The position numbers and the translations under genes were made by a program. From assembly GCA_903953935.1 (NCBI GenBank), contig CAJBLF010000051.1, positions 1-57,371 of the forward strand: DNA of 57,371 nt, read 5' to 3'. The notes beneath the pieces were generated by a model that was not told the DNA's origin, ran no database searches, and worked only from the letters and a program-made list of their open reading frames with translations. The stretch comes from an uncultured bacterium. Lineage in GTDB: Bacteria > Patescibacteriota > Gracilibacteria > Absconditabacterales > Absconditicoccaceae. Shown here piece by piece: positions 161-21,377 of this stretch (position 1 is the first letter of the stretch; every line of letters starts with the position of its first letter).

Positions 161-904
161 ATGGACGCAAATTTACTTATTACACTCCAAAACTACGGTC
201 TTTCCGAAAAAGAAGCGAGAATATATCTCACGGCCTTGGAATTGGGGACGTCTATCGCCAGCACTATCGCCAGGCGTGCAGAGCTCAATAGAGCGACAAC
301 CTATACCTTACTAGAAGATCTCAAGAGGGATGGTATTGTTAATGAGACAACCAAAGACGGAGTCAAATATTACAGCGTTATCAGTCCTGATATTTTGCTC
401 AAACAGCTGGAACAGAAATACGAAAGTTTCAAGGAAAAGGTTCCGGAACTATTGGCTATGGCAGAAAAATTCGGCAATAGAATCAAAGTCCAATTTTTTG
501 AATGAGTGGAATGAATCGTAAAGATGTACAATGATTTGTTAACATCAAATACGGAACCCATTCATTCGTTTTTGGGGTTGTCAGATATGCATCCAGTATT
601 GAAAAAACGTTTGTTTGAGGGGTTTGTACCTCAAAGGATCAAATTAAAGATACCAGCAAAAGTCATTGTGAGTGATCATGCTGCAAATCAGGAATACAAG
701 AAAATGGACAAGAAGGCAATGAAAGAAACTCGTGTTATCAAATGAGATCTGTTTTCATTGTATGGAGAGATAAATATTTACGGAGAAAATAGAGTTATGA
801 TAGCTATGTTCAATGATCAGGAGATGTCATGAGTTATTATTCATAGTAAGACCATGCACGATAGTCTCAAAAATATATTTAATTTTATGTGGAAGAATAA
901 ATAG
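161..904 (+). CDS. TrmB-family transcriptional regulator
   Basis: 247 aa, starting at the ATG at 161 and ending at TAG 902-904, reading through four TGA codons as glycine. Residues about 8-65 form a winged helix typical of TrmB-like regulators: NYGLSEKEARIYLTALELG, then a helix-turn-helix around ASTIARRAELNRATTYTLLE. The C-terminal half (DLFSLYGEINIYGENRVMIA) resembles the effector/PLD-like half of CPR TrmB proteins. The next gene starts only 3 bases downstream, so the regulator is probably co-transcribed with the two methyltransferase-like genes and may control them. The ligand is unknown. The family call rests on the N-terminal pattern; the regulatory target is inferred from position. Confidence 0.8.
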
Positions 905-3856: not shown

Positions 3857-3895
3857 ATTTGATTGTTTTATATGTTTATAGCGCTAGTGTGTATG

Positions 3896-5722
3896 AAGGA
3901 ACTACTTCAAAACACAAAAGAGAAACAATATGAGCAGATGTTTGAACACATCACAGATATTTCATTAAGTGAAAATATAGCACCCTTTTCTACTGATGTA
4001 CAAGCAGTTATAACATCAGCAAAGGAACAGCATAAGGATGAATGTGAACATCTTAAAGATGGAAGTATAGGTCCGTTTACTCGTACGGTTGTCATGAATC
4101 TTCCTATAAAAGTACATACCCAGGAAGGTAAAAACATTGATCTGGATTGTAAGATATGGTCTAGGACAATGCAGAATCTGATAAGTGATGACATCATACA
4201 AAACATCCGTTCATCCTGATCGGTTGATCTTCTAGATATTGATTTTGATTTCAATCTTTGACCTACAGAATATGCCGAATATTATTTTTCCGATACTGAT
4301 TTTTTCAAAAACATTAAACAAAATGTTGTAAGTTTTATTAAGAAAAATCCAGGGATACAGAAAACTATCGTGGATAATTATTGTGATGGAGTATCTGCTA
4401 CTCTATGATATATCAAGAGCAAAGAACCAATTATTGATCAGTGGGAAAAGACCACAAGAGAATTGTTTATATCATTAGGTATGCCAAAAGATTTTGTTCT
4501 ACAAAAGCACAATAGAGTGGTCCCAGATACAATGATTTTGGGAACTTATGGATCAAAATGGAGAGAAATACTTTCATCTCAACAAAAAAAAGCATTTGAA
4601 AAATTATTAGATATAGGACATGAATTGAGGTGATTTGATGCAGCACATGAGACAAAAAGATATATTGAAGAGGTAAAGAAAAATAGTGAAAGTATACAAC
4701 AGATTGTATCGGATATAAAAGGAGGTAAACAGGAAATATGGTTGGATTCCAAATTTTTCTATTTGGACAATGGAGATAATTTCTATGATGATGTAATAGA
4801 AAAGAGTAAGTATAATATATATTATAAAGCAGAATTAGATTTGATACAGGAAAATAAGCAAAGGATTATTCCATATCTGAGATATAAATATATAGGATTA
4901 TGATGTGGAAACGGGAAAAAGGATTATAGTATGATTTCGGAAGATATAGATGTCGGTAGGTCATTACTTCAGTCATCTTCTTGATCAAAGATAGAAAAAG
5001 TAATGTTAATCGATAGTAGTCTAAAATCGCTTTCCAAGGCTGAAAAACTTATGAGTCAGAATAGAGCGGCGCGATGAGTGTCATTATGATCAACAACGGT
5101 ACTATTTTCTCAGGAACGAGTAGATACGTTGTTGGAGACTAATGAGATGAAAACATTGACGTCAGTCACGCACAATCCACACGAATCGATACTAAATATA
5201 CCAGACATTAGAGAATCATCAAATATGTTTGCTATTTTTTGAGGAACATTTGGAAATTTTGAGAAATATCAATCAATGTTTCTTAAACAAATGGATGAAC
5301 TTATGAATAAAGATGATGTATTGTGTATTTCGCTGTTTAATCGTCCAAAGACCGAAGAAGAAAGAAAAAATATTGTGAGTATGTATGATACACCAGAAAT
5401 TTATGCTTTCATGAAAAATTTCTTTATCAAAATGGGAATACCCAATGAGTGTATAAAAATCAATGTATGGTATGATGAAATAAGTGATGCTATAAAGATT
5501 GATGCACAGATGCAACGAAAAGATAATACCCCCATAAAAATAAATCATAAAGGAGAGCAGGTAGTAGTTCCTGATGGTACCAAGTTTAATTGTCTCACGT
5601 CTCAAAGGATGGATAAAGAGGCATTACAAACATGTATAGACCAATCAAACACGTCACTCAAGATAGTAGATCAGATAACTACCGCAGATAATCCATTTAC
5701 CTTATATATGATTTCAAAATAA
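3896..5722 (+). CDS. second EgtD-like SAM methyltransferase with long N-terminal extension
   Basis: About 608 aa ending in TAA. I chose the ATG at 3896 (MKELLQNTKEKQ); an in-frame ATG at 3872 is possible. The C-terminal half carries the EgtD-like pattern: YIGLGCGNGKKDYS near residue 332 (motif I), VMLIDSSLKSLSKAE near 371 (motif II), and FAIFGGTFGNFEKYQ near 447, followed by DDVLCISLFNRPK. The first 330 residues are helical, charged and unrecognised. It lies 39 bases after the membrane-anchored EgtD-like gene, so the two probably form one operon with the TrmB regulator. The two proteins share the methyltransferase architecture but differ clearly in sequence, suggesting an old duplication or a hetero-oligomer. 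Substrate unknown. Confidence 0.6.
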
Positions 5723-5735
5723 CACAGTGTATTGG

Positions 5736-5783
5736 TGTTGTAATATATTGACAGCAGTTTGGAATTAATACGTATTGATATCA
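5736..5783 (+). promoter_or_regulatory. degenerate copy (R0) of the six-copy upstream motif
   Basis: GTGTTG-N11-CAGCA is followed by exactly 18 bases and then TTGATA (5775-5780), the same geometry as the better copies at 9.7, 16.9, 18.9, 19.6 and 20.4 kb. The arms are imperfect (CAGCA for CAACA) and the 18-base spacer has diverged. It lies just after the second methyltransferase gene and upstream of the acetyltransferase leader, so it probably drives the gene at 5995. A role as promoter plus activator site is inferred. Confidence 0.4.
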
Positions 5784-5888
5784 GATCAGATATATGTATC
5801 TCTATGGTATGTTTATATTACAATAAAATACGTATGCACATACGATTACAAACAGCTCAGACTACCTTCTTCTATTATTTTAAGAATA

Positions 5889-5973
5889 GGAAGGATTTCT
5901 CGTATTGTAGATAAATAACAAGATCATACATACACAAAGCCTTCCTCAACTATTATAGATGAAGGCTTTTTTT
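5889..5973 (+). promoter_or_regulatory. attenuator-like leader with terminator
   Basis: A stem AAAGCCTTC (5936-5944) / GAAGGCTTT (5961-5969) runs into seven Ts, an intrinsic terminator only about 20 bases before the ATG at 5995. Upstream, GGAAGG (5889-5894) can pair with CCTTCC in the terminator's 5' arm and would then prevent termination. The same arrangement precedes the genes at 6778, 8022 and 30222. The mutually exclusive pairings are visible in the sequence; the signal that switches them is unknown. Confidence 0.5.
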
Positions 5974-5994
5974 ATTATTTTTATTGAATATACC

Positions 5995-6597
5995 ATGAAA
6001 AATATAGCAACAAAAAATGTTATCATCCATGATATGGTAAGAGAAGAGCTTGATGAATTATCTATATTGGTTTCACATCGGCAAGAAAATAAGGAATTTA
6101 TGAGATTTCTTAAAGAGACGCCCATGACATCTACACAAAATTTAGCGATATTACAGAAAGAATTTGATACACCGCAAAGTTTTTTCAAATCGATTAAACT
6201 GGAGGGAATCAAAGATATAGTATGATTTTTATTGTTTCATTGTTTTGATCTTCCCAAAAGAGAGATAGAACTTTGATTTAGGATTGATCCATCGTTACAA
6301 CATAGAGGTATTTGCTCACAAGCAGTCAAACAAAGTATTGCAGAAGTGTTGTCTCAGGATGATATAGACCATATCGTATGATGGCATTCTGCGTGGAATA
6401 CATGAAGTTTTGGAGTGTTTAGAAAATCATGATTCAAGATAGTAGATTTCGTTCCTGATCAAACGTTTTTGCCAAATATAGGAAAGATAACCGATGATTT
6501 CAAACGACAGATATCGAAAAAAGCAATACAAACACATATAGATAATGAAGATCGTATACAAGCATGATTACAACAGCACGATTTAAATGTATTTTAA
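5995..6597 (+). CDS. GNAT-family N-acetyltransferase
   Basis: 200 aa from the ATG at 5995 (MKNIATKNVIIHD) to TAA 6595-6597. An earlier in-frame ATG at 5959 lies inside the terminator hairpin and was rejected. The C-terminal half has the acetyl-CoA binding pattern of GNAT motif A, ELGFRIDPSLQHRGICSQAV, followed by a motif-B-like stretch, HSAWNTGSFGVFRKSGFKIVD, as in RimJ/RimL-type enzymes. Five or more glycines are UGA, including the one in 'SGFKIV'. It is the first of three acetyltransferase-like genes in 2.6 kb, each behind its own leader. Its acceptor substrate cannot be told from the sequence. Confidence 0.75.
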
Positions 6598-6680
6598 CAA
6601 TAGAACAAAGAATATGAATATACTGATAGTAAAACATATGATAAATAAGGTAAATAGCACATTCTTCTTTTATATGTGAA

Positions 6681-6759
6681 GGAAGGATTTTGAGTTTTGA
6701 TAAAAGATTATGTAAACTCGTTACGCCTTCCTATCACACAAGATAGGGAGGTTTTTTTT
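6681..6759 (+). promoter_or_regulatory. attenuator-like leader with terminator
   Basis: CCTTCCTATC (6726-6735) and GATAGGGAGG (6742-6751) form a 10-bp stem with one G-U pair, followed by eight Ts, 19 bases before the ATG at 6778. GGAAGGATTTT (6681-6691) repeats the sense of the 3' arm and could instead pair with CCTTCC. This closely parallels the leader at 5889-5973, including a preceding TTCTTCT-TTAT stretch, which suggests a shared regulatory element. Confidence 0.5.
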
Positions 6760-6777
6760 ACTTTGTAATATACACAC

Positions 6778-7539
6778 ATGAATATACCGTATCATCATAT
6801 AGAAAAAATAGATGGAGCAAACAATCAAAAAGAAGCCAAGATAGCTTCATTAGCGCAGGCTTTATATAATCATCGAGAGCAGAACCAGGAGTATGGTAGT
6901 TATCTCTTGGAGAAAAAACCAGATTCATATCATGATATAGCACACGATATTATGATAGCACTGACAAAAAATATAGAGCATCACCGTCTATTTATTATGA
7001 CTGACGAAATGAAAAAGGAGCTAGGATATATATTACTCAAAAATTATGCTGACTATATAATCGACGATCCAATAGCATGACACAGTATATCTTCCATAAT
7101 CAGACCTAATTTGGAAGCGAGTTATAGAACGATAAAGAAATGAACATGTACACCAGCTATCAGACATGTTTTAATGGATACCTTAGTGGTATGAGATGGT
7201 ATACAATCTATCATGTGACATCATGCAGTAGCCAACAAATCCAGTGGTGCAGTATTTCACGCAAACGGATTTTCTGTAGTCAAATATCATAAAGACTACG
7301 TTTATCTACCAAATATCGACGAAAGATCAGATACCATTCTCTGGAAATTAGACAAGGAGCAATATCTTCAAGACAATATCCGCTACAACGGAAATTTAAA
7401 AAATCATGTAAGAGATAGTGGATTGAGAATCGATGAAACACAAAATAAAAATAGTAAAGATCTCCAAGATTGGTATTTGGATATGCAGAAAAAACGGCAA
7501 AAAGATGCTCCTGTAGATAAAGTGAAATCACTAAGATAA
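6778..7539 (+). CDS. GNAT-like acetyltransferase (tentative)
   Basis: 253 aa, ATG 6778 to TAA 7537-7539, with several UGA-glycines. The N-terminal 100 residues are helical and unrecognised. Residues about 115-175 resemble the GNAT core: NLEASYRTIKKGTCTPAIRH, then VVGDGIQSIMGHHAVANKSS, then GAVFHANGFSVVKYHKDYVY, where 'N..S..V...GF' is the usual motif-B pattern. A clear R/QxxGxG loop is not visible, so the enzyme could be a divergent or inactive member. It sits 180 bases after another GNAT gene with a matching leader, which supports the assignment. Confidence 0.5.
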
Positions 7540-7570
7540 AAATCTCTTGATTTATTTTGTAACTTTATTA

Positions 7571-7593
7571 CAGTATCACTGTTTTAATACAGT
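7571..7593. promoter_or_regulatory. overlapping palindromes before the YerC/TrpR-like gene
   Basis: CAGTatcACTG (7571-7581) overlaps ACTGTtttaatACAGT (7578-7593). The two dyads share the ACTG half and end 7 bases before the ATG at 7601. The position suits an operator for autoregulation by the encoded small helix-turn-helix protein. Binding is inferred from geometry only. Confidence 0.4.
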
Positions 7594-7600
7594 AAAACAT

Positions 7601-7882
7601 ATGAAGATGGCAAAAAGCATATACGCTAAATCAATCGAGCAAGTATCCAAACTCTTATTTAGTATAGAAAAAGAGCAAGAATTACATAACTTCCTTGAGG
7701 ATATTCTTACGCCTCAGGAAATTATAGAAATTGGAGAGAGGATTCATCTTTGTCGTCAACTTCTCCAAGGTAAGACCCAGAGGGAAATAGCTGAAGATTT
7801 GGGTATCTCAGTAACCACGGTGAATAGGGGAGCGAGAATGATAAAATTTGGAACAGGATGATTAAAAACAGTATTGAAATAA
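7601..7882 (+). CDS. YerC/YecD-type TrpR-like DNA-binding protein
   Basis: 93 aa from ATG 7601 (an ATG two codons later is also possible) to TAA 7880-7882. The protein matches the TrpR/YerC-YecD family in length and layout: an N-terminal helix (SIEQVSKLLFSIEKEQELHN), a central FLEDILTPQEIIEIGERIHL, then the helix-turn-helix GKTQREIAEDLGISVTTVNR. UGA encodes glycine in the tail FGTGGLKTVLK. The family are small dimeric repressors; the ligand of this subgroup is poorly known. It probably represses its own transcription through the dyads just upstream. Confidence 0.85.
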
Positions 7883-7956
7883 TATATTTTATACAAAGAA
7901 GTCTTTATGATGGATAAACAAGCAATACAGACACCAAACAAATTATATAAAAAATC

Positions 7957-8023
7957 ACGATGGCGATGAAATCGTTGTATAGAAATTTTACGATTTTTTT
8001 TATTCTTTGATTCTTATCGCCAT
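7957..8023 (+). promoter_or_regulatory. leader with terminator and start-codon-occluding pairing
   Basis: AAATCGT (7969-7975) / ACGATTT (7990-7996) form a stem running into eight Ts, a terminator 20 bases before the gene. ACGAT (7957-7961) can pair with ATCGT (7971-7975) as an antiterminator. In addition ATGGCGAT (7960-7967) is exactly complementary to ATCGCCAT (8016-8023), which includes the first two bases of the start codon at 8022, so the leader could also control translation. All pairings are visible in the sequence; function is inferred. Confidence 0.5.
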
Positions 8024-8627
8024 GAGAAATTCAAATATATCTTTCACGACTCCGCAAGAGGCTAATATCGACGCATCCATATACAAAGATCATCTCAAAG
8101 ATTTAATACTTCAAGAAATACATACCAATCCCACTATGGTTTTACATACAGATGAAGAAATACTTTCAAAATATACCTCAAGTATTATAGCTATTGTTGA
8201 CGGAAAAATCGTGGGAAATGCAAGCATCTATCCTACTCACATGCAACCACTTGATACGCTTATTTTAGATGGAAAACATATTCGTGTGGGTGAGACGTGA
8301 TCCGTTATTATTCATCCAGATATGAGAGGACATGGACTAGGAAAAAATCTTATTACCAAAACATTGAGCGAATTTTCTCATGCATATGATGTGATTGTCG
8401 AGGCAACAGTAAATGATGTTATGTTTGCTTTAAGCTTACACCAAGGGTTTGAACGCATTCCTTTTCCAAAGAATTTGTATGAAGAAGGAAGAAATCATTT
8501 AGCTCCACGCATGAAAGGCAAGGAAGCGGAATTCGATCAAAGAGCAAGATGTCTCATGTATAATGTTACGTTGTCCCAAGAACAGAAGGAGGAATTGATA
8601 GCTATTTTACAGAAGGAATATAGGTAA
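8022..8627 (+). CDS. GNAT-family N-acetyltransferase
   Basis: 201 aa from ATG 8022 (MRNSNISFTTPQEAN) to TAA 8625-8627. Acetyl-CoA binding motif A is clear: VIIHPDMRGHGLGKNLITKT, with the RGHGLG loop, followed by a motif-B-like ALSLHQGFERIPF. The single internal UGA encodes the glycine before SVIIHP. A TTG in the same frame at 8007 would add five residues but overlaps the leader stem. It follows a convincing attenuator/start-occluding leader and is the third acetyltransferase-like gene in the block. The gene 46 bases downstream encodes a deacylase-family protein. Substrate unknown. Confidence 0.85.
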
Positions 8628-8673
8628 ATCTCTTTACCATAGAAGTTTTTTTATCTTTTTTAAAAGGCATGTC

Positions 8674-9513
8674 ATGCAATGAGTTCATATAATAGATTTT
8701 AAAAAACCAGGACCAACGACATTGATTGTCTGATGAGTTCATGGAAATGAAATAGTATGAGAAAAGGCGATAGAGTATCTTATCACAAAAACAGAGACAA
8801 TGGTCGTAGGATGAAAAATAATAACACTACAAGCCAATCTTGAGGGCAAGAAGATGAATAAGAGATATGTAGATCACGATCTCAATAGAGCCTTTGCTAG
8901 TGAAGATATTGGGTGAAGTTATGAAGTTAGTAGGGCACATGAGATTAAAGATTTTTTTAAGGAAATACCCATTGATTATGCGTTTGATTTGCATTCTACG
9001 CCAAGCAAAAGCGATCCTATGATACTTTGTACATCACAGCCATCGTCATTAGCTCTAGCATCCAAGATGCCTATATATCATGTTGTCCAATGATTGATAG
9101 ACAGGGTAGAGTGAATGTCTTTACTGAAATATTTTCAGCCAAGATTAAAACTTGGTATGGCCTTTGAGTGCGGATGTCATGAAGATGATGTAACCATTAC
9201 TATAGGAAAGAAAATTATAGATACTATTATAGATTTTCATCAAGGAAAAGAATTACCTAGTCAGAATGATCAGATGAAAATAGCTATAACAGATATCGTA
9301 TATACTGCTGATCCAAATTTTGTGTATACCAAACCATACAAGTGATTTGAGATGATAGAAAAGTGAGAAGTGTGGTGAGTAGATAGTATGTGAGAGCATA
9401 GATTTGAGGTATCCAAAATTATAGTCATACCAAACACGATGATTGCTCAAGATCTTGAAAAACAATCCAAAACATGGGTCGCTTACTTCTGAGATGCTAT
9501 AAAGAACAAATAA
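8674..9513 (+). CDS. succinylglutamate desuccinylase/aspartoacylase-family metallohydrolase
   Basis: 279 aa from ATG 8674 (MQGVHIIDFKKPGPTTLIV) to TAA 9511-9513. It shows the AstE/AspA zinc-carboxypeptidase signatures in order: GGVHGNEIVGE near residue 24 (H and E as zinc ligands; both leading glycines are UGA), DLNRAF near residue 72 (substrate arginine), and AFDLHST near residue 104 (third zinc ligand His). FECGCHEDD near residue 168 fits the position of the catalytic Glu. These enzymes remove acyl groups from N-acyl amino acids. It follows three acetyltransferase-like genes, which makes an acylation/deacylation theme possible. Good family confidence; substrate not determinable. Confidence 0.85.
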
Positions 9514-9539
9514 TAACAAAATCGGAAATGATTTTTTAT

Positions 9540-9560
9540 CCCGCAGTAATGCGGGTTTTT
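9540..9560 (+). terminator. intrinsic terminator
   Basis: CCCGCA-gtaa-TGCGGG followed by five Ts, 26 bases after the deacylase stop codon. A weaker hairpin (AAATC/GATTT plus Ts) lies just before it. Confidence 0.85.
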
Positions 9561-9651
9561 AATCGAGATACAATGAAAATCAGATATTTTCTGATGATTT
9601 TTGTGATATCGAAATTATATATATTCCCAGTGCATGGGAGTAAATATTCTA

Positions 9652-9730
9652 TGTTGTAATTTTCCGACAACAGTATTTGTCAGTTCAGCATTGATATTTA
9701 TCTACATTTGCTTATTTATGGAAATGTCAA
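9652..9730 (+). promoter_or_regulatory. copy R1 of the six-copy upstream motif
   Basis: The palindrome TGTTG-N11-CAACA (9652-9672) is followed by an 18-base block and TTGATA (9691-9696), then TGTCAA 35 bases on. The copy sits about 33 bases before the gene at 9763. TTGATA fits a -35 box, with TATTTA 16 bases further as a weak -10. The block between the palindrome and TTGATA is partly diverged (GTATTTGTCAGTTCAGCA) compared with the 19.6/20.4 kb copies. Confidence 0.55.
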
Positions 9731-9762
9731 GTTTATGTATTTTATATGATATGTTAGTGATA

Positions 9763-10971
9763 ATGGAAAATTTTGAAGCTGAGTCATGAATTACGTTTAT
9801 GAAAAAAAAGCAACAATTGGAGGGTCAGGTGCAAGTGTTATTGCAAAAGAGTGATTTTGAGTGAGCTAAAACAAAAATAGATCAAATAGCTATTTTGGAA
9901 ATACGTAGACAAAAATCACAAAATATGTTGTGATTATGAGATGAGGAATATAAGGATGCTTTATTGCTTGATGATCCCATATATCAAGAAGCTGTGGAAC
10001 ATAATAATCAGCAGGTCATACAGCTTTTCAAAACGAGAAAAATTACTCAGGAACAATATGAACAACTCAGAAAACAGCAATATGAAAATCTTTTTAGAGA
10101 AAAGGAGTGAGAGCGTATAGAGACATCAGAAGGTAAAGTTTCTAGAATAACGAAAATATACAAAGTAGAAAACATACTTTCTATGTTGGATATCATACAA
10201 AAAAGATTCGGAGAGGAAAAAAGAGACATGCTAGCGATGCAGATAATGGATTTTCTTGATTCAGACAAAACACCAAAGGAGTTTGATCTATCATATTTAG
10301 AAAACATTGAAACGAAGGTAAGAAATTATCTCATACTTATGAGAAAGGTCGAAAGTAATAGCTTACGATGAATAGAGGAATCTATACATATGCATACTAA
10401 GATAGATCCACAAGAGATAGAAGCACAAAAGACAAAAGATGTACTACTACAGGCACGTAAAGAACATATTGAAACCAAAAGAGCTAGTTTGATAGCTGAG
10501 ATGAATCCTCTAAACGAGGATATGATAGCCAAACAGAAAACATTGTATGCATTATTAGAGAATATGGTAAATAATACGCACAATCATGATCTGTGATTTC
10601 GTAGCGATATATCATTTATGTTTCAATTTGCGAGATTGAAAATGTTTCCAGCAATGGCAGATGGTTTGCCATCAGGTATACCTGCCGAGTTTGTAAAATA
10701 TGTACAAAAATATGGTAAGGGAGATGTAGAGAAAACTCTTGCTACGGTATACTGATTGAGAGACGAAATTCGTCAACTAAAAATACAGATAGATGAGATA
10801 TACAGGAAATTTTTAGTTATAGAGCAAGCACAGGAAGAAGAAAATGTATATATATCAGATAGTTCAGAGGTATTTATTTGAGATTTTATACCTATGCCTA
10901 TCAATAAACTAGCGAGTGAGTGATTGATAGATATGCCATCATATCATATCGTAACCCCAGAGATAGCATAG
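9763..10971 (+). CDS. coiled-coil protein of unknown function
   Basis: 402 aa from ATG 9763 (an in-frame ATG at 9751 is possible) to TAG 10969-10971, with about ten UGA-glycines. The protein is rich in Lys, Glu and Gln with long helical, coiled-coil-prone stretches (KKKQQLEGQVQVLLQKSD; IEAQKTKDVLLQARKEHIET) and no signal peptide. I recognise no enzymatic motif. It is preceded by motif copy R1 and followed after 68 bases by another large unknown protein. Possibly a structural or scaffold protein, but that is a guess. Confidence 0.75.
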
Positions 10972-11039
10972 TTTGTAATATTGTATTATTGGTTCTAACC
11001 CATCAAGCACAAGTATTTTATACTATTATATATTCACAG

Positions 11040-13385
11040 ATGAAAAAAAACACACCTATTTCATTAATTGATCTTAAACAAAAAATCGAATCATTCAAAA
11101 ATGATATCAATAATTTTTCAAAGGAAAATGAAAGTCAGTTGGAACATCAATTGAAAGATATCAAAGATGATGTACAATTTATTCTCTTGGAATCTGCTGA
11201 TAGACAGAATGAAAGAATACAAAGGCGCACCCAAAGAAACGAGGAGATTGAAAAATACAATAAACAAGGGCCTCATAATGCCAAATTGCAATATATAAAA
11301 GATAATACGGAGGAATTTCTGGCTACGATGCGTAAGAAATGATATCCTATAGATGACGCATGAGATATGAATGTTGGGAAAACAAAAAAAAATAGGAATA
11401 AAGTAAATATAATACCAGTTGTGTTTACGCCTAAGCCATTGATTGGTTGAGATAATTATGAATATGTGAGAGAGGTGTTGGAAGGACAAGAACAAGCAAC
11501 AATAGCTGAGCTTACAGAATTATTGGAAATTGCACAGACCAAATCAAGAAATATTTTCGAATATTATACTATGCCATCAGAGTTATTTCAAAAATTAGGT
11601 ATCTCTGTACAAAAGGTCAATTATTCGTTTTTTGCACAAGAGCCCAAAAAAGATAAGATACCAAGAAAGGGTGGTAGTCATGATGGTGGTAGAGATAAGG
11701 TTGATCAAATTCCACCTACCTTCAAGAAAATATGATTACTGATGAAGCATCTTCTGGAAAATAATATTCCCTTCCGTGCAAACAATATCATAGAAGATAA
11801 TAATCAACGATATCAATTTTATTTTTATGATAAGGACATTACTATACTCATTTCTGATGAGGTTTCGGGGAATTGCTTTAGAGATTCAACGTATGCAATC
11901 AAATGAATAGTTCCTGGATTGAGGAATGTAAATAAAGAAGAGCTAAAAAACTACCAAGGGAAGAAAATAGTATATAATGAGAATCGAAATAGAAGAATAG
12001 AGTCGGTATTTACTGATGATCCACAGAATCGACCAGTTATAGGAGAGGAAAAGGACGATATAGCTATTGTTCCCAAAACATTGATCACGGATAGGGCAAC
12101 GTTTATCAGCATCATCAGAGAGCATTTTACACCAGAAACATTCAATGGTGCATCATACAGGAAGTTCGCACAAGAATATAATGCAACACAAGCTAATGAG
12201 TTATTGTTAAATGATACAATATACTGAGCTGTTTCATTGCTGTGATTATGAGGAAAAAAGACAGTTGATGATATCAAAAAAGCTATATTCGAGTTCAAGA
12301 AACCAAAATTGGAGATGCCAAAAGATTCGTATTTTTTTAATGAATATACTAGACAGCATCTATTAGATATTCAATGATGTGAATGATTTGATGCTGAAAA
12401 AATGCTTGGATCTGTTAATTATGCAAGTCGAATAAATGAACTATTGAGGAAAGCATGCAATGAAGAATATGTTGATGCTGTCGTAAATAAATCACCAAAA
12501 GAGAAGAGAGAAAAATTACAAAAATATACTGGGGTAAAAGACATTCCATTGAATGCAAGCAAAATAACTACTATGCTTGGATGATGTGTCAGATGTATAG
12601 ATACTGACTATCAGAAAATGCTCCGAAAGAGGTTTGTGATGTATATAAATCTTAAAGAAATAAATATGCAAGAGTACAAGGATCTACAGAAAGAGATTTT
12701 AGAATATGAAACGAATTGGGAAGATAAGGAATTGCGTCCACATACAAATAAATCAGATAGGAAAGTAAAACAAAGAGAAGAGAATGCTGATATCCAAAAG
12801 ACAGAGAAACCAAAAGAGAAGCAAAAAGTGCTAGTATCAAAGAATGTAAAGAAAGTTCAAGACGATGCACAAAATACTTTGTTGAATGTTTTGAAAGATC
12901 CTATTACCATTGAGACATTCCCACTCCATGTGGTTAAAAGCGTTAAAGTTGTTAGCGAGAATCCATCGTATCGAGTGGTAAAAGCATATAATTGTCCTGT
13001 GGAATTGAGATTATCGAAATTAAGCGTAGGAAATAATGCAGTATTTAAGCCTGGAGACAAGATAGATGTGTTTTGAGTGAGAAAAAACGAGAAGGAGTGA
13101 TATATAATGGTTTCTCCAGAACGAGAGAAGTGAGTTCATAAACTCATAAAATTTCGTGATTCGCATCCTGATAAACTATTAGATGAATGTATTCATGGTG
13201 AGACTTATGATGCAGTAGTGAACAATGTTAGTTGAAAATTTGTTTATGTATCTTTGACAAAGAATTATTCAGGAAGATTGCTTATTCAACAAGGAGAAGA
13301 ATATAAAATAGGGGATATCGTGAAGGTAGTATTTGATGGTATAGGAACTAATCGTCAGGGTAATACATTCATTAAATTGCAGTAA
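11040..13385 (+). CDS. large unknown protein with S1-like C-terminal domain
   Basis: 781 aa from ATG 11040 (MKKNTPISLIDLKQKIESF) to TAA 13383-13385. The N-terminus (about residues 1-110) is coiled coil. The middle is unrecognised and includes a lysine-rich, disordered stretch (KQREENADIQKTEKPKEKQK) near residue 590. The last 60 residues, GETYDAVVNNVSGKFVYVSL then GRLLIQQGEEYKIGDIVKVV, follow the S1/OB-fold RNA-binding pattern. An RNA-related role is therefore possible. UGA-glycine occurs throughout. No close family is recognised. Confidence 0.7.
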
Positions 13386-13413
13386 TATTTTTTATCTCCT
13401 ATGATTGAAAGCA

Positions 13414-13590
13414 ATGAAAAAACAAACTTCTTCTAATGATATATCTTCTGAAAACGAGATAATTCTAACTACTTCAAAACAAAAACTCAAAAACAAAAAA
13501 ATATATTTTGATTCTAACGGGACCCATATCGAGATCGGCTACGATGACGAAACTGGTGTTGGTTTTGTTGAAATCATAGATAATAACTAA
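13414..13590 (+). CDS. small acidic protein of unknown function
   Basis: 58 aa from ATG 13414 (MKKQTSSNDISSENEI) to TAA 13588-13590. A TTG at 13405 would add three residues. The C-terminal half alternates hydrophobic and acidic residues (KIYFDSNGTHIEIGYDDETG), suggesting a small beta-rich fold. It contains no UGA, which is unremarkable at this length. It lies 28 bases after the preceding gene and 24 bases before the next one on the same strand, so it is probably co-transcribed. Confidence 0.6.
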   Translation: MKKQTSSNDISSENEIILTTSKQKLKNKKIYFDSNGTHIEIGYDDETGVGFVEIIDNN

Positions 13591-13614
13591 AATTTATTCA
13601 TTATTCATAAAAAA

Positions 13615-14238
13615 ATGACTGACATAAACAATCTACGTAATCAAGATGTAGAAGATTGTGGAGATAATACACCTTACCATGTAAGAGTTCAGAATCATGA
13701 AATGGTCGATGTATTGGATGATGATTTCTATGATATATTCTCTCTCAATCAATGATTGCTCTTTCATATGGTTACTTCTTGTGAACCCACACAATACATA
13801 GTATACAAAAATGCTCAACCTATTGCGTTCGTATATAGTAGATCACATTCTTCTTGTACAGTGTGAAATACAGTTATATTTGATAGCTCAGATTTTATGG
13901 TGGATCCGAACATTGAAAATATGACAGAGCATATCTCAAGGAGATTGCAACAATCAATACCACAAGAAGAAAGAGAAAAAATAGAAGAGCTGATAAAATA
14001 TTATGATACCGTTAGACAAGAAAAAAGTAAAACATCAAAATATTTGAAGGCAGCAGAATTTATTAACACCTGTAAAACAACTTCATGGACCGATATGTAC
14101 GCGCAGCTTATTAATCGGTATATACAAAAAACATGAGCAGATACTATATGAGCATTGGATGGTTTTGATGCTTTGTTGAGTGAAATGCCGAAGGAAGAGA
14201 TTCGTGCTATAGAATCAAAATTACAAAATAAAATATAA
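13615..14238 (+). CDS. unknown protein
   Basis: 207 aa from ATG 13615 (MTDINNLRNQDVEDCGDNTP) to TAA 14236-14238, with three UGA-glycines. The N-terminal half looks alpha/beta (YIVYKNAQPIAFVYSRSHSS); the C-terminal half is helical (EHISRRLQQSIPQEEREKIE). No signal peptide, membrane segment or known motif is visible. It belongs to a run of same-strand unknown genes from 9.8 to 16.9 kb. Confidence 0.7.
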
Positions 14239-14291
14239 CAATAAAAATATATTTTGAATAACAATATTTTATCATTTTTTTAAAAATACTC

Positions 14292-16091
14292 ATGACAGAA
14301 AAGATTATCAGTACGGAAATAACTGAAAAAGGTCCTGATCAATGAATGGAAAATAAGATATTACATACGCAAATAGAACTGCAGGATATTATGACCTTGG
14401 TAGAGAAGCTATGAGAAGAATGAAGACAAGTATTTCTTCATAATTTATCTCAACAAGAGAATCTCTCTGAAAATGTTTTCAATCTTTTGATTAAACATAT
14501 TGATTCAAAAATATTGTTTAATCTATGTAACAATATAGCAGTATCATGAAATATTTTGGACACAATTGTTCAGAAGATTATAGGGATTGCTCAAGGTACA
14601 GAGCAAATTCCATGGGTGATAGAAAGCAATGAAGTATATTACGTTGAAGAAGAAGATGAAGAATGAGGAGTTTTTATAGTAAATGACACTAGTCCATATA
14701 TAGAATGTATACTCAAAAATATTCATCTACGTACCCAAGATATAGAAAATATAATGAATGTTTTTCAGTGATCTATGAATCATTGGTTTCAAGTAAATAT
14801 ATGTTCAAATCCCAATACGCCATCATGGATTTTGGAAAAAATGTACGAAATGAATCCTCATAATCTAATGGATGTGGTATTTGATAATCCTAATCTCTCC
14901 GAGACTTGCAGGATAAAGATACAGGCAATAAAGAATCAAAACCATGAGAAGAATAAAATTAAGCAACATATTGAGGATATTAAGGAAAAACATCCTGAGC
15001 TGGATATATATCAGATATTAGCGTATTATGAAAATAAAAAAGATAAGGAAACATCCTTATTGATAGCTGGATATCTATATAATTATAATCTTGGGCATTT
15101 TAGATATTGATCAAAAATACATCATGAGAAATTACAATTAAAGCTCAAATTGGCACAAAAATATGCTATGTCAGAAGAATGTAAACTTAGAATACTATAT
15201 GATATGATAGGAGAGAGTATAGTGAATGATTGATCGCTAATGATATATGAAAAATTTGACGATGATCCGATATATATAACTATCCCTGAAGCAGAAGAAA
15301 AATATGGAGTCAAAATAGATCAGGAGCATATAAAAATAGTATGTCAGGATATTTTAAAAGAAATGCTCTGACGAACTAGCCCGCAGTTCAAAGATATAGA
15401 AAATGCTTATACATTTGCTCAAAATATGGATATAGAAATTCCAGACATCAATACACAATATTATATAAAAGCACGTATGTCTGTTATAAACAATAGAAGA
15501 AGTAATCGTTTTACCACAAACGACATGTCAGAGCATTTCAAAAAGTTATTAGAACTAATGGTAGAAAACAAAAGAATGTTTTCTGTGTCAGAGGTAGAAA
15601 ATTACGTACAAGATATGAATACATTCATATTCCCTATTTGAGGGGTTAACGATATATTTGAGGTGATTACAAAATTAGAGTTATCCGAGGAGTTTACTCA
15701 TGATATAGTTATCAAAGAATTAAAGAAATGTTTCAGATACAATCACAAAAAATGAAAATTATTGATACAGAGATTTGCTATTGATCCGGAAGAACTCATA
15801 CAAATCATAATAGGTTTAAAAGAAACATCAGGTGGTGAAGAAACAGATGAATGTGGTTGGTGTTTTGCAATGGATAAAGACTCTTCTCTGGAATATTGTT
15901 TGGATACATATGGAATAGATCATGATAAGGTGATACCATATATGATTGATGATATCAAAAGAGAACTTATCGAAGATATACAAAAAAAAGACTATGATAG
16001 GGCACAAACCATTATAGATAAGTACACTGTTTGGGCAAACTGAATGTTTGATGAACAAAGCGAGGTGCTTACTATATTAACCAATAAATAA
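14292..16091 (+). CDS. unknown helical-repeat protein, possibly LRV-like
   Basis: 599 aa from ATG 14292 to TAA 16089-16091, with about nine UGA-glycines. The segment near residues 165-205, VNICSNPNTPSWILEKMYEM followed by DVVFDNPNLSETCRIKI, has the 'NPNTP..L..L' rhythm of leucine-rich variant (LRV) repeats, and an earlier stretch (NLSQQENLSENVFNLLIKHI) fits the same style. The rest is helical and acidic with no signal peptide. Such repeats mediate protein binding; nothing points to an enzymatic role. The repeat call is tentative. Confidence 0.6.
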
Positions 16092-16119
16092 GGTTTTTTA
16101 TATTTTTATATACCAAAAC

Positions 16120-16878
16120 ATGACAGAAATAATCGATTGAATAGATCAGACTACAGAAAATGGAGAAGAAACAAAAACAAATCATATCCAACAAAATACA
16201 TGACCTACAATTCTTTGAGCCTTAGCAGCAGAACAACAAGACGAATCCAAAGAGAAGATACAATTGCCCAATGTTATCATCTGCCGTAGATATGGATCTG
16301 ATAGGTCAAATGATATGGCAGCATTAGAGAAGGATCTTCCAGAAATTTTGAGTAATGTTACCTATATTAATACTCCATGAAAGGTAGTGAATTATCTCAA
16401 ATCTGATGTCAAAAACATTGTGTTTGTTGGACAGTATTTCGATTGTGATATGAAAGGAACGGATGTTGCTGCAGCAGTAAAAAAAGTGGGACGGGATAGT
16501 GAAGTCATATTATTGACCTCTATAGATATGTATCCTTATCAGTTGTGAGATTGTGATCATTACTATCAAACAAGTAAATCATTCAATGTACCAGATGGGG
16601 CAAGAATGATTGTAGATCATCTCAAAAGTAGAATACATATTTCTACCAAAAAAGAACAAGTACCACCGACAGAGGATGTGCTTGAGGAAAAATTAGAACT
16701 TTTACATATGTGTTTAGTGCCTTCACAAGTACCTACTCAACTTCCCAAAGAATTATCAATGTATACGGAAGCGTTTGAACTATTTAAACAAACGACAAAG
16801 GGATGTGGTGATTCGTTTGATGATACCTATGTCGAAGCATTGAGAAAATTTCGTGATATCTTATTAGAAAACATATAA
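16120..16878 (+). CDS. degenerate receiver-like (CheY-fold) protein
   Basis: 252 aa from ATG 16120 to TAA 16876-16878. Residues about 50-170 suggest a receiver fold: a first strand PNVIICRRYGSD, a strand ending NIVFVGQYFDCDMKGTDVAA where an Asp could be the phosphoacceptor, EVILLTSIDMYP with the usual Thr/Ser, and YQTSKSFNVPDGA with a Lys. The acidic pair normally after strand 1 is absent, so phosphorylation is doubtful. An N-terminal 45-residue low-complexity stretch and a C-terminal helical tail flank it. No histidine kinase is seen nearby. Confidence 0.5.
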
Positions 16879-16900
16879 TACAATACCTAACCTAGAGAGA

Positions 16901-16932
16901 AACTCTTCCATAGAAATATGGGAGAGTTTTTT
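16901..16932 (+). terminator. intrinsic terminator
   Basis: AACTCTTCC (16901-16909) pairs with GGGAGAGTT (16920-16928), continuing into a T run, 22 bases after the receiver-like gene. Confidence 0.85.
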
Positions 16933-16936
16933 GGTC

Positions 16937-17016
16937 TTGTTGGTGGTGTACAACAACAGTATTTACTAGGTAAGTATTGATATATTATTAAATATCATTA
17001 AAAAACAAAATGTCAA
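16937..17016 (+). promoter_or_regulatory. copy R2 of the six-copy upstream motif
   Basis: TTGTTG-N8-CAACAA (16937-16956) is followed by GTATTTACTAGGTAAGTA and TTGATA (16977-16982), with GTCAA 35 bases after TTGATA begins. The radical SAM gene starts at 17074, 92 bases after TTGATA ends. Only two bases or so differ from the 20.4 kb copy over the central block, so this non-coding sequence is under selection or recently copied. Confidence 0.6.
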
Positions 17017-17073
17017 CAAAAATAAAAAACAAAGCAAACATATCATAAAATTTTTATCTATATATTATAATAT

Positions 17074-18468
17074 ATGGATCTAATTCAGCCAAGACATTCT
17101 TATGCAGACGAAACAGCTCAATGACAGATTTATACCAATACGTCATTATGGACAATATGAGCTATGCTTAATAATGCAGGAATACCTATCTCTTTGCATG
17201 ATGAGAATATTAGACCAACAACAACATTAGATTCAAATATTGTAGGAATAAATCTGCTTTGAGCACCATATATTCCAGTAGCTAGAGAAATGATACAGAG
17301 ACTAAGAAAACAATTTTGAAATGAATTGCTTTTTGTTCTTGGGGGACAGGTTCTTACGCAAAAGAAATCAAAAACGTGAAAGATACTCTGACTGGATGAT
17401 ATTCAGTTTAAAAAAATATTTTGAGAAAATGTAAAAAATGGTATGAAATCAGGTGTTTTAGAAAATATTTTTCATGCAAGGTATCTTACGACAGCTCCCA
17501 ACATTTCATTAATCCCTATATATAAAAAACTGTCTGATGCAGATTTTCTGAGATATTTTTCAGGAGAAATTTCTTTGTATGTGTCTCAGGGATGTAAATT
17601 TACCTGTGATTTTTGTGCTGCCGAAAAAAACCAGAAGGAAATATATAGAGACGAAAATCTTATTTGTAAGGATCTTCTCTATATTGTTACAAGATTACAG
17701 GATCTAGGAAAAAATCACTTAGATATCTATATGTCCAATCTTGATGTCTTCCAGTCTCCAGAACAGTTGGAATGATTTGCTGATATGATGGTGAACCTCA
17801 AAAGAAATATACCAGGATTTACTTGTTCTTCTTTTACCTTTAATCTTCGTGGACTTGCTGGGACGGAATCGTTTGTTGATCTGAATATCAATCATCCTAA
17901 AATATTGGAAAAACTAGTTGAAGCTGGTTTCAATACCGTCGGATATGGAGTGGATGGTATGTGACCTGATGTTTGGAAGGGGATTAAGAAGCCACAGAAT
18001 AATGAAAAAAATATTCTGGATGCTATTCGCATTTCGAAAGAAAAATACAATATCACTCCAGAATTACTCATGGTTTTTGGTCATGTGGGTGTAGATACTG
18101 AGCAAAGTTTGAGACATGCCTACGATTTTGTAGAAGCAATGGTGAATACATATGGTGCAGTGCCTAGACCACATATAGCTAAGCAATTCATTCCTGGAAA
18201 CGATGGACGAAGTAATCATAGATTTCAAAAAGAAGTTAGTATGCTTATAGAGAATCCGATATTATTTCAATCACTAGATTTTACAGCATTGGCAAGTACA
18301 TTAACACATCCAGATAATGAGTTTAGAGATATGGTAAATTACTATTATCTAGAAATGTGTAAACTTCCAGGAAACATTACGCGTCCGATTATTCCCTATG
18401 ATATATGAGATACCCAAGAAATTATCCAGCAAAAAAAGAAAAAAAATATAGGAAAATTCGATAGATAA
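17074..18468 (+). CDS. radical SAM protein, probably B12-binding type
   Basis: 464 aa from ATG 17074 to TAA 18466-18468. The radical SAM cluster motif CX3CX2C is clear near residue 175 (CKFTCDFCAAEKNQKE) and should bind a 4Fe-4S cluster. The preceding 150 residues (SLWTIGAMLNNAGIPI; FGNELLFVLGGQ) follow the layout of the N-terminal cobalamin-binding-like domain of MiaB/BchE-type proteins, although no DxHxxG is visible, so B12 may not bind. Downstream GYGVDGMGPDVWKGIKK fits the barrel. UGA encodes glycine many times. It stands alone behind motif R2. Reaction unknown. Confidence 0.8.
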
Positions 18469-18522
18469 GAAGTCAAATAAAAAATAGTATACCTAAACAA
18501 TAAAACAAAAAAAGGAGGAACT

Positions 18523-18783
18523 ATGAAGAGTATAATAATAAAGTTTGCTATAATGATTGCATTTGTTTCTTTGTTGATAGCGATAGGGGCATATTCGCCT
18601 CCATCTGATGAAAACAATGCCAAAATAGCGATAAGGTCAAAGGTTGATAAGTGTGTGAGAGTTGTGAAAATATCAACTCAATTCAATGGAATTGCCCATT
18701 ATGTAGCGATAGACAGCGCATATACTATCTATATGTTCAGTGTTACTCCCATCGGCAGTATATCACAAACAGGTCAGAAGTAA
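18523..18783 (+). CDS. small secreted or membrane-anchored protein, no UGA-Gly
   Basis: 86 aa from ATG 18523 to TAA 18781-18783. A strong Shine-Dalgarno sequence, AAAGGAGG, ends 5 bases before the start. The first 25 residues are hydrophobic (IIIKFAIMIAFVSLLIAIGA), a signal peptide or anchor; the remaining 60 are unrecognised (KVDKCVRVVKISTQFNGIAH). All glycines use GGN. It is the first of four short UGA-free genes between 18.5 and 21.4 kb, each closed by a strong terminator. Its strong ribosome binding site differs from the other three, which lack one. Confidence 0.7.
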   Translation: MKSIIIKFAIMIAFVSLLIAIGAYSPPSDENNAKIAIRSKVDKCVRVVKISTQFNGIAHYVAIDSAYTIYMFSVTPIGSISQTGQK

Positions 18784-18801
18784 AAAGAGAAAAGGTAGTG
18801 G

Positions 18802-18829
18802 TGCTTAGGTATATCCTAGGCATTTTTTT
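18802..18829 (+). terminator. intrinsic terminator
   Basis: TGCTTAGG-tatat-CCTAGGCA followed by seven Ts, 18 bases after the stop of the small secreted-protein gene. Confidence 0.9.
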
Positions 18830-18889
18830 AATTGAGATATAACAAAAAAACGAAATGGAGTAGTGTCTTTTTGTGCTATAGAAATTATA

Positions 18890-18969
18890 TTGTTGTAAAT
18901 TTCTGACAACATGTTTTGTTAGGTAAGTATTGATATTTAGCTATTAATATATAAAATAAAAAATGTCAA
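18890..18969 (+). promoter_or_regulatory. copy R3 of the six-copy upstream motif
   Basis: TTGTTG-N11-CAACA, then an 18-base block sharing TAGGTAAGTA with the other copies, then TTGATA (18930-18935), with GTCAA exactly 35 bases after TTGATA begins. The gene at 19016 starts 80 bases after TTGATA. A -10-like TAAAAT lies 16 bases after TTGATA. Confidence 0.6.
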
Positions 18970-19015
18970 TGTGGATAATTAAAAAATAATTACTAATCAT
19001 ATAAATCGCTACCCT

Positions 19016-19441
19016 ATGAAACATGTACGCGGAATCGTTAAGCACTACGACAGAGAGTTTATCTTTGAGGTCGGAATGCACGTTGCAAACACAACGGACC
19101 AGTTATGTATGGAACAGCTGGAATATTATCAGAAATATGCTGGTAAGATACCATCGATGCCACACATAGAACTGGAAATTATTACTTTACCATCAGAGAC
19201 TGTAGGTATTGAATTACACATACATCCCGTAAATGACAAAAATTTTGTTTGTTGGACGGGACATGTGCCGGATGATACCAAAGCTTCTTGGGTATTTAGA
19301 CTTTGGTGTTTGGGTTCGATTTATACAGTATTGACCGGGATACCATTTGAAAAATACCTGTTCGATGGTGATATCAAGGGCGATTCTGATGCTTTTGAAT
19401 CTGCATTGGCACAAGAGTTTCATCTGATCTACATTGATTAG
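19016..19441 (+). CDS. unknown protein, foreign-looking, no UGA-Gly
   Basis: 141 aa from ATG 19016 (MKHVRGIVKHYDREFIFEVG) to TAG 19439-19441. All nine or so glycines use GGN, and codon choice (CGC, CGG, GCG, CAC) is richer in G+C than in the flanking genes. There is no signal peptide. The sequence looks like a small alpha/beta cytoplasmic protein (IPSMPHIELEIITLPSETVG; FVCWTGHVPDDT). No family recognised. It has its own motif copy (R3) and its own terminator, so it is a single-gene transcription unit. Confidence 0.75.
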   Translation: MKHVRGIVKHYDREFIFEVGMHVANTTDQLCMEQLEYYQKYAGKIPSMPHIELEIITLPSETVGIELHIHPVNDKNFVCWTGHVPDDTKASWVFRLWCLGSIYTVLTGIPFEKYLFDGDIKGDSDAFESALAQEFHLIYID

Positions 19442-19508
19442 TGGGGTAATGTTTTCATGTGTTGATATGACAAACCAATGAAAACAGGATACCTACTATC
19501 CAATAATA

Positions 19509-19542
19509 AACTGACATCGTATTTCTTTGTCAGTTTTTTTTT
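19509..19542 (+). terminator. intrinsic terminator
   Basis: AACTGACA (19509-19516) pairs with TGTCAGTT (19528-19535), running into about nine Ts. It closes the gene ending at 19441. Confidence 0.9.
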
Positions 19543-19582
19543 ATAGAGCAAAAAAACTTATTACATGGTTTTTGAATGTCTA

Positions 19583-19677
19583 TTGTTGGTTCTTTCAAAC
19601 AACAGTATTTGCTAGGTAAGTATTGATATTTGTCGTTTTTTTGATATATAAAATATATACAAAAACAAAAAAGTCAA
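19583..19677 (+). promoter_or_regulatory. copy R4 of the six-copy upstream motif
   Basis: TTGTTGG-N7-CAAACAA is followed by GTATTTGCTAGGTAAGTA and TTGATA (19623-19628); 18 bases later comes TATAAA, a good -10, and GTCAA lies 50 bases after TTGATA begins. The start codon is at 19693. About 95 bases here are nearly identical to the region before 20523 (R5), a recent duplication or gene-conversion pair. Confidence 0.65.
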
Positions 19678-19692
19678 GTAAACAAAAAAGTT

Positions 19693-20298
19693 ATGAAAAA
19701 ATTATTCGTAATGATGATCAGTGTTATGATCATAAGCATGGTTTCTGCACAAGAAATTAAGACCAATTGGCAACTTTCCGATGTAAGCTTTAGTGCGGGA
19801 AAGGGTGCATTAACCTCTGGATTTGATACCCGTTTTGATTTTTCCAACAATAAAAACGGCGTCTTATTTTTACAAGCAAACAATGATCGTGCAACTATCA
19901 ATATGGGAAAAAAATTTGGTAATTTCCAATTGATTGAAAGTATAGGAGTATTTAAGAATATACCTTGGACGGGACCTATGTTACTCTATCAATTGGGACC
20001 ATTTGATTTCATTGTGTGGAATGGTGTAGGTTTCGCTAAGACCAAGGAATTATTAGCTCCTAGTTATAAACCACAGTTTTTCTTTTCCTATGAGGGAATG
20101 GGAGTGACAATAAAGAAAAACAATAAATTGAGTGCTGCAGTTATGTGGTTCGGTAAAGAAAAACCAAATTGGTTTGTATCGTACAAGAGAACACTGTCTG
20201 TAGGAGAAAAGTCAAAGTTCTTCGGTGAAGTTACCTACAACTATAATCTCAAAATCCCAATGTTCGTTTTGGGATACAGTATGAAGTTAAATCGATAA
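19693..20298 (+). CDS. predicted outer-membrane beta-barrel-like secreted protein, no UGA-Gly
   Basis: 201 aa from ATG 19693 to TAA 20296-20298. It starts with a signal peptide (MKKLFVMMISVMIISMVSAQ), with likely cleavage after SA and Gln at +1, a pattern common in Bacteroidota. The mature part alternates polar and hydrophobic residues (KKFGNFQLIESIGVFKNIPW; KSKFFGEVTYNYNLKIPMFV) and ends in a beta-strand, like small outer-membrane barrels. No glycine uses UGA and no Shine-Dalgarno is visible, unlike native neighbours. It has its own promoter motif and terminator. CPR bacteria are thought to lack an outer membrane, so the protein's location is puzzling. Confidence 0.75.
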   Translation: MKKLFVMMISVMIISMVSAQEIKTNWQLSDVSFSAGKGALTSGFDTRFDFSNNKNGVLFLQANNDRATINMGKKFGNFQLIESIGVFKNIPWTGPMLLYQLGPFDFIVWNGVGFAKTKELLAPSYKPQFFFSYEGMGVTIKKNNKLSAAVMWFGKEKPNWFVSYKRTLSVGEKSKFFGEVTYNYNLKIPMFVLGYSMKLNR

Positions 20299-20321
20299 TT
20301 GTTATTAGTAATTGTTAGTAT

Positions 20322-20351
20322 CTTCCTCGGTATATCCGGGGAAGTTTTTTT
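20322..20351 (+). terminator. intrinsic terminator
   Basis: CTTCCTCGG-tatat-CCGGGGAAG then seven Ts, 23 bases after the stop codon. Nearly the same terminator follows the next gene at 21398, so the two cassettes share promoter and terminator sequences. Confidence 0.95.
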
Positions 20352-20391
20352 ATAGAGCAAACATAGTGATTACATGGTTTTTGGATGTCTA

Positions 20392-20486
20392 TTGTTGGTT
20401 CTTTCCAACAACAGTATTTGCTAGGTAAGTATTGATATTTGTCGTATTTTAAATATATACTATATACACAAACAAAAAAGAGTCAA
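20392..20486 (+). promoter_or_regulatory. copy R5 of the six-copy upstream motif (best copy)
   Basis: TTGTTGG-ttcttt-CCAACAA is a perfect 7-bp dyad, followed by GTATTTGCTAGGTAAGTA and TTGATA (20432-20437); 18 bases later TATACT fits a -10 box. GTCAA lies 50 bases after TTGATA begins, as in R4. The dyad is centred about 31 bases upstream of the -35-like box, comparable to class I activator sites. Confidence 0.65.
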
Positions 20487-20522: not shown

Positions 20523-21377
20523 ATGAAAAAAATTATGATTATTATTGCTTTCGTAGCAATTAGCGCAAGTTCTTTTGCTCAGATCACTGGCATATACATT
20601 ACCAAGGATAGTACCGTGGTGATCGATAAGATATATGCAGGAACGCTGAGTGGCGTTAACTTCCATACTGATAGTTTGTATAGCTCGGGATCAACTGGCA
20701 TCCGATTTGGAGCAATGGCCACCTATAGGCCAACCAAATGGATTTCGTTCTCATCATGGGGAATGGCTCAGATTGATGGTGGTTCAACTCCATGGTCATT
20801 GCAACAGTTTTACATGACCATCACACCGATTAAAAATCTGACTATCCAGGCCGGAAGTATGGCAACATTACCTACGGAACAAAGGCCGCATCCAGTAAGT
20901 GGTAACGGTCAGTTCGAAACATTCAGTGAATCACAGATTCCAGGTGGTGGTTTGGGTGTCAAAGTTAAATATCAGTTAACTAAAGACGTTCAACTTGCCA
21001 GCGGAATCGCTTTGCGTAATAGTTTACCTGAGTATTCGGGTAGGATTATCTACAAAAAAGTGCAACTGAGTGCGTGGTATACTACATGTGATTCAACTAT
21101 GGGTACAGCACTCACGTTGGATTTAGATAGAGTGTATTCAACATTTGTCTTCAAGTATGATCAGAGTATCTCCAATGTACTTGTTGTCAAATTGAGCAAA
21201 AAGCAGGATATCTCTCTCTATTCCGATATGAGCTATGACTTTGTAAAAAAGGACTTAGTTCGTGGTGAGTGGGGAGTACTCAAGGGTTTTGATTCAAAAT
21301 GGATTGATGGTTTACTTGGTGTAGGCTATCAGCATGAATCAAAATCAGTAGTGGGATACTTGTTTGTACACCTCTAA
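20523..21377 (+). CDS. predicted outer-membrane beta-barrel protein, no UGA-Gly
   Basis: 284 aa from ATG 20523 (an upstream in-frame start would place 28 residues in the promoter region and hide the signal peptide) to TAA 21375-21377. Signal peptide MKKIMIIIAFVAISASSFAQ with a Bacteroidota-like SFA|Q cleavage site. The mature protein has repeating amphipathic strands typical of porin-like barrels (TGIRFGAMATYRPTKWISFS; LTIQAGSMAT; YQHESKSVVGYLFVHL). All glycines, about 27 of them, are GGN, and G+C is visibly higher than in native genes. Likely horizontally acquired and fitted with the local promoter motif and terminator. Confidence 0.8.
   Translation: MKKIMIIIAFVAISASSFAQITGIYITKDSTVVIDKIYAGTLSGVNFHTDSLYSSGSTGIRFGAMATYRPTKWISFSSWGMAQIDGGSTPWSLQQFYMTITPIKNLTIQAGSMATLPTEQRPHPVSGNGQFETFSESQIPGGGLGVKVKYQLTKDVQLASGIALRNSLPEYSGRIIYKKVQLSAWYTTCDSTMGTALTLDLDRVYSTFVFKYDQSISNVLVVKLSKKQDISLYSDMSYDFVKKDLVRGEWGVLKGFDSKWIDGLLGVGYQHESKSVVGYLFVHL

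Follow-up and report, generated by a model that had tools for sequence, protein, structure and literature searches.

The six copies of a palindrome-headed motif in the window, the 57,371-nt stretch of DNA analysed here, are quite probably sigma-70-type promoters of a single regulon, in which a TrmB-type protein, F0, binds the palindrome and activates transcription from upstream. Each promoter would combine a -35 box (TTGAYA), a 16-nt spacer and a -10 box (TAtaww) with a 21-bp palindrome placed 18 nt upstream of the -35 box. F0, which is encoded at the head of a gene island, would bind TGTTG-N11-CAACA, probably as a dimer, and activate RNA polymerase from this upstream position; its targets would include native TGA-rich genes as well as apparently captured TGA-free genes, among them one for a porin-like barrel. 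The reading draws on computed features of the copies (geometry, -10 match, orientation, conservation and clustering), on their co-occurrence with F0 and on the presence of the palindrome upstream of distant F0 genes. In the open-access literature searched, no paper was found that links TrmB to Gracilibacteria or to the candidate phyla radiation, nor one that describes a promoter motif or regulon for either group. An operator, a likely regulator and a short list of targets make regulation in an uncultured, host-dependent lineage testable in vitro, and the targets may point to genes that Gracilibacteria use on their hosts.

Host genome and genetic code

The window is contig C51 of a 1.3-Mb genome (G000). 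When TGA is read as a sense codon, long frames cover 95% of the window rather than 12%; both the quality of the resulting translations and the named relatives (Gracilibacteria, Patescibacteria or unclassified bins) point to TGA = Gly (table 25). The genome is that of a Gracilibacterium, and TGA makes up about 31% of the glycine codons in a sample of it. A mis-binned foreign contig was ruled out, since the island recurs in 11 genomes beside TGA-using genes.

The motif in the window

A preliminary description of this DNA had placed a dyad followed by TTGATA at 5736, 9652, 16937, 18890, 19583 and 20392, and direct reading finds the motif at all six sites. The pattern TGTTG-N11-CARCA-N18-TTGAYA matches the window exactly six times, always on the plus strand, and never in 60 first-order Markov windows. 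Copies in both orientations, which the description had counted against its own reading, are not seen, the minus strand of the window having no match. The fixed gap of 18 nt between dyad and TTGAYA that it had claimed is exact in 6/6 copies, and the distances it gave for GTCAA are also correct, with 35 nt from the first base of TTGATA in the copies at 9652, 16937 and 18890 and 50 nt in those at 19583 and 20392. The dyad, written there as TTGTTG..CAACAA, holds in outline: the copies at 5736 and 9652 open with TGTTG, and that at 5736, the most diverged in the window, has CAGCA and a diverged spacer. A single duplication of 166 nt (86% identical) contains the copies at 19583 and 20392, which are therefore not independent.

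Promoter architecture

An alignment on TTG of 45 copies from 12 genomes, partly related by duplication or descent and so not independent, gives the layout TGTTG-N11-CAACA, 18 nt, TTGAYA, 16 nt, TA. The bases of TGTTG are each kept in 43-44 of the 45 copies and those of ACAACA in 44, and the -35 block has TTGA in 43, with YATT after it. TA stands at +22/+23 in 45/45 copies; the search model ended at about +8, and the TA is therefore an independent result that places the -10 box after a 16-nt spacer, within the 16-18 nt that separate the two boxes of a sigma-70-type promoter. When the gap between dyad and -35 box was left free (5 to 33 nt, 37 genomes), 24 of 30 matches fell at exactly 18 nt, compared with three matches in all for a backwards control; this near-invariant gap is suggestive of face-of-helix spacing. 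Behind nearly every strong copy the next gene is co-directional, in most cases with its start 23-73 nt past the predicted transcript start, some longer leaders being explained by short open reading frames or by tRNA-Asn genes in G022 and G031 (directly behind the motif at L073:10687-10760 and L081:8039-8112). The -35 box with an upstream activator dyad proposed in the preliminary description thus gains support from the invariant TA, the 18-nt gap and the co-directional genes. The motif is a -35/-10 promoter whose 21-bp palindrome has its centre some 64 bp upstream of the predicted transcript start; the 21-bp register pairs best (78% vs 67% for 18 bp), and the right arm is readable both ways.

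At class I activator-dependent promoters, CRP has its site at -61.5. The palindrome likewise keeps a constant position before the -35 box, with its centre at about -64, although both regulator family and operator differ. The CRP-like regulator that had been suggested is not indicated, as the consensus TGTTG-N11-CAACA does not fit the TGTGA-N6-TCACA of CRP/FNR-like operators and the candidate is a TrmB-like protein. GTCAA occurs at +35 or +50 after TTGAYA in 24/44 copies, compared with 1.3 expected; in the window it lies at 9726, 17012, 18965, 19673 and 20482, near or just past the predicted transcript start. Its reverse strand was considered as a divergent -35 box and rejected, no consistent -10 box being visible by eye.

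Distribution among related genomes

A sequence-only profile, built from the six window copies and a seventh on contig C11, finds exactly seven strong matches in G000, the next best having E = 0.09. The scan of the genome proposed in the preliminary description thus adds one copy, at G000:C11:2983, outside both window and island. It precedes a homologue of the gene behind the copy at G001:C12:64632, and between these two copies the spacer has diverged and the dyad, -35 and -10 boxes are kept. Extended to related genomes, as had also been proposed, the profile gives strong matches in 10 of 59 relatives' genomes and in 11 of the 49 genomes of the family. Strong copies are nearly always clustered in one gene island, with several each in G003, G001, G005, G006, G022, G235 and G031 (the last a fragmented assembly of many short contigs), for the most part inside some 20 kb. 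The operator is kept at homologous genes in different genomes, namely those of the radical SAM (F20), F4 and F2 families and the C11/C12 homologues. The same operator stands at several promoters and at homologous genes across genomes, as expected of a common-operator regulon.

A TrmB-type candidate regulator

F0 (161-904, plus strand) is a winged-helix protein of 247 aa that matches the TrmB DNA-binding domain PF01978 at 48.2 bits against a cut-off of 25.6 (E = 9.5e-13). The sugar-binding domain of classical TrmB, PF11495, is absent from its Pfam matches at E <= 0.01; some known members of the TrmB family also have no C-terminal sugar-binding domain (PMC4158304). Three nucleotides behind F0, on the same strand, lies the gene for a 982-aa EgtD-like SAM methyltransferase-domain protein of family F1 (908-3856; PF10017, E = 1.5e-13), followed by a second F1-family protein (3872-5722, plus strand; PF10017, E = 5e-12). 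F0 recurs at the head of the islands, and F1 adjoins it in nearly all of them.

Within the 59-genome set, an F0 homologue of at least 330 bits is present in 10/10 genomes with a strong motif, and among the other 49 a close F0 is found only in G034, which carries a weak motif (Fisher p = 2e-10, phylogeny uncorrected). Two further tests are independent of linkage within the island. Five of 116 weak motif matches lie directly upstream of F0 homologues, compared with 0.13 expected, and among the regions upstream of 65 F0 homologues, most of them distant, 13 hold TGTYG-N6-13-CRACA, compared with 0.26 expected and never more than three in 300 simulations. The cognate regulator of the palindrome is, on these associations, most likely F0. 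Most close F0 genes have no palindrome in their own promoter, so that autoregulation is not the rule among them; what they share instead is another conserved promoter-like element, AATTTGC..TTCTGGATAYAATT, for instance just before 8378 in L073 and at about 14920 in L098. Seven genomes of the family have a more diverged F0 homologue and no strong motif, so the link between F0 and motif may be subfamily-specific.

TrmB, TrmBL1 and Tgr of Thermococcales and VNG1451C of Halobacterium likewise have a TrmB-type DNA-binding domain, paired with a palindromic operator as is predicted for F0 by association (PMC4158304). The archaeal operators are TACT-N3-AGTA or TATCAC-N5-GTGATA, in contrast to TGTTG-N11-CAACA here (PMC4158304). 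Archaeal TrmB regulons further differ in their BRE/TATA promoters, where a bacterial sigma-70 promoter is found here, and in targets that belong to sugar metabolism, whereas those of F0 would be island genes, mostly of unassigned function; the sugar-binding domain of classical TrmB, as noted, is one that F0 does not detectably share. F0 would carry the position-dependent mechanism of archaeal TrmB onto bacterial sigma-70 promoters.

Activation and competing explanations

Where a TrmB site precedes the core promoter, the protein is reported to activate, and where it follows, to repress (PMC4158304), and the fixed upstream place of the palindrome therefore suggests activation rather than repression. 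It is possible, though unlikely, that F0, bound upstream at the same promoters, represses or silences them, for instance through a loop to GTCAA near the transcript start. The excess of this second inverted element would agree with such a role, as would the distant F0 homologues, where the palindrome lies close to the gene's own start codon, in some cases at a -10-like box or beyond it; the palindrome studied here, however, does not lie over the core promoter, and its constant position ahead of the -35 box fits contact with the polymerase.

That some other factor binds the palindrome, F0 being a mere frequent neighbour in a horizontally transferred island, is distinctly unlikely. Joint transfer would also produce the linkage and co-occurrence of F0 with the motif, but distant F0 homologues in other families have the palindrome upstream as well, and no further helix-turn-helix gene was seen to recur across the islands.

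The repeats precede successive, apparently captured genes with related flanks, as attC-like recombination sites of a gene-cassette array might, yet it is very improbable that they are such sites rather than promoters: TA is invariant at 16 nt, the copies point one way, towards genes with short leaders, and they precede native TGA-rich genes and tRNA-Asn as well. Integron attC sites have nested paired inverted repeats at the 3' end of the cassette, whereas the two inverted pairs here are sequential and lie 5' of genes; orientation, the invariant -10 box and the sequential dyads led to their rejection. Recent duplication of functionless intergenic DNA as the sole source of the likeness can be dismissed as exceedingly improbable, for although copies 5 and 6 share a duplicated segment and four window copies have most of the spacer between dyad and -35 box in common, this spacer, similar in close copies, differs from genus to genus around retained dyad, -35 and -10 blocks.

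Target genes

In the window, the regulon driven by F0-dependent promoters would cover a GNAT acetyltransferase, a radical SAM protein, a TGA-rich protein and three TGA-free proteins, all on the plus strand. Copy 1 (5736-5802; dyad 5736-5756, -35 5775-5780, -10 5797-5802) has its predicted start near 5809. A Phe/Tyr-rich leader peptide of 26 codons, MHIRLQTAQTTFFYYFKNRKDFSYCR (5834-5914, plus strand), begins 25 nt past this start and is followed by a terminator whose T run ends at 5973 and whose arm CCTTCC is complementary to GGAAGG in the leader. This element with alternative pairings spans 5834-5973, and a similar one occurs in G001, G005 and G007. The GNAT acetyltransferase lies behind it (5995-6597; PF13302, E = 4e-11), and a variant of the element (6638-6769), again with a Phe/Tyr-rich leader peptide and a terminator, stands directly before a second GNAT acetyltransferase at 6778. 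Judged from its sequence, the element looks like ribosome-mediated attenuation, which would put the acetyltransferase under additional control, and copy 1 probably drives this leader-peptide attenuator. The attenuators pheL and trpL are of the leader-peptide type, and the element resembles them in its short Phe/Tyr-rich reading frame, its alternative pairings, which overlap, and the terminator immediately ahead of the gene; unlike them, it precedes a GNAT gene or a gene without assigned function.

Copy 2 (9652-9718; dyad 9652-9672, -35 9691-9696, -10 9713-9718) would drive a TGA-rich gene of unassigned function (9763-10971), read as a frame with its start picked by eye 38 nt past the predicted transcript start. 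Behind copy 3 (16937-17004; dyad 16938-16958, -35 16977-16982, -10 16999-17004) lies a radical SAM protein (17074-18468; PF04055, E = 4.5e-10), and the same promoter stands before its family-F20 homologue in G005. Copy 4 (18890-18957; dyad 18891-18911, -35 18930-18935, -10 18952-18957) precedes the gene for a 141-aa protein without TGA codons (19016-19441), and copy 5 (19583-19650; dyad 19584-19604, -35 19623-19628, -10 19645-19650), duplicated with copy 6, that for a putatively secreted, TGA-free 201-aa protein of family F10 (19693-20298), with a hydrophobic N-terminus seen by eye and an unsuccessful structure prediction (pLDDT 39.5). Copy 6 (20392-20459; dyad 20393-20413, -35 20432-20437, -10 20454-20459) precedes the gene for the putatively secreted porin-like beta-barrel of family F2 (20523-21377), also free of TGA. 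One correction applies to the regulon sketched in the preliminary description: the acetyltransferase is reached only through the leader peptide and terminator.

The TGA-free targets are apparently captured genes and the TGA-rich ones lineage-specific native genes. Families F7, F10, F12, F16 and F21 (e.g. in L071, L074, L078 and L084) are almost TGA-free among TGA-rich island neighbours. Avoidance of TGA through high expression is unsupported, the GroEL of G022 using TGA for 43/54 Gly.

The porin-like family F2

The F2 model (AlphaFold2; pLDDT 79, pTM 0.71) shows a barrel of 15-16 strands similar to OmpF and Rhodobacter-type porins (Foldseek E = 3e-8), and the N-terminus is signal-peptide-like. 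No TGA occurs among about 230 glycines in nine copies or inside any of 11 strong matches, one TGA counted for the window copy lying upstream of the chosen start at 20523. Close F2 members are found only in genomes with a close F0 (G235 was left out of the F0 comparison); members of the family occur in L070, L072, L074-L076, L078, L084 and L086. The F2 of G022, which belongs to another genus, is 68% identical to that of the window and same-genus copies can be 41-44% identical, a pattern that suggests transfer between genera or hidden paralogues. A contig scan for F2, with short patterns that reach close relatives only, returned just four relatives, all from Gracilibacteria, Patescibacteria or unclassified bins, and gave no donor among Bacteroidota. 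No Omp85 protein was detected in 21 genomes by a search that was positive in 7 of 14 control genomes. A bolder and rather improbable extension is that these TGA-recoded episymbionts carry a TrmB-run host-interaction island, whose captured TGA-free genes, the barrel included, would move between genera with their own F0-dependent promoter and be expressed as one programme on meeting a host, the barrel acting in the host outer membrane.

Elsewhere in the window, a PhoH-like gene and two adjacent genes, the latter perhaps of pyrimidine synthesis by sequence (32307-33818; L180:17658-19284), contain no TGA codons, which suggests recent acquisition. A RuBisCO large subunit with few TGA codons is encoded at 44180-45640 of this Gracilibacterium.
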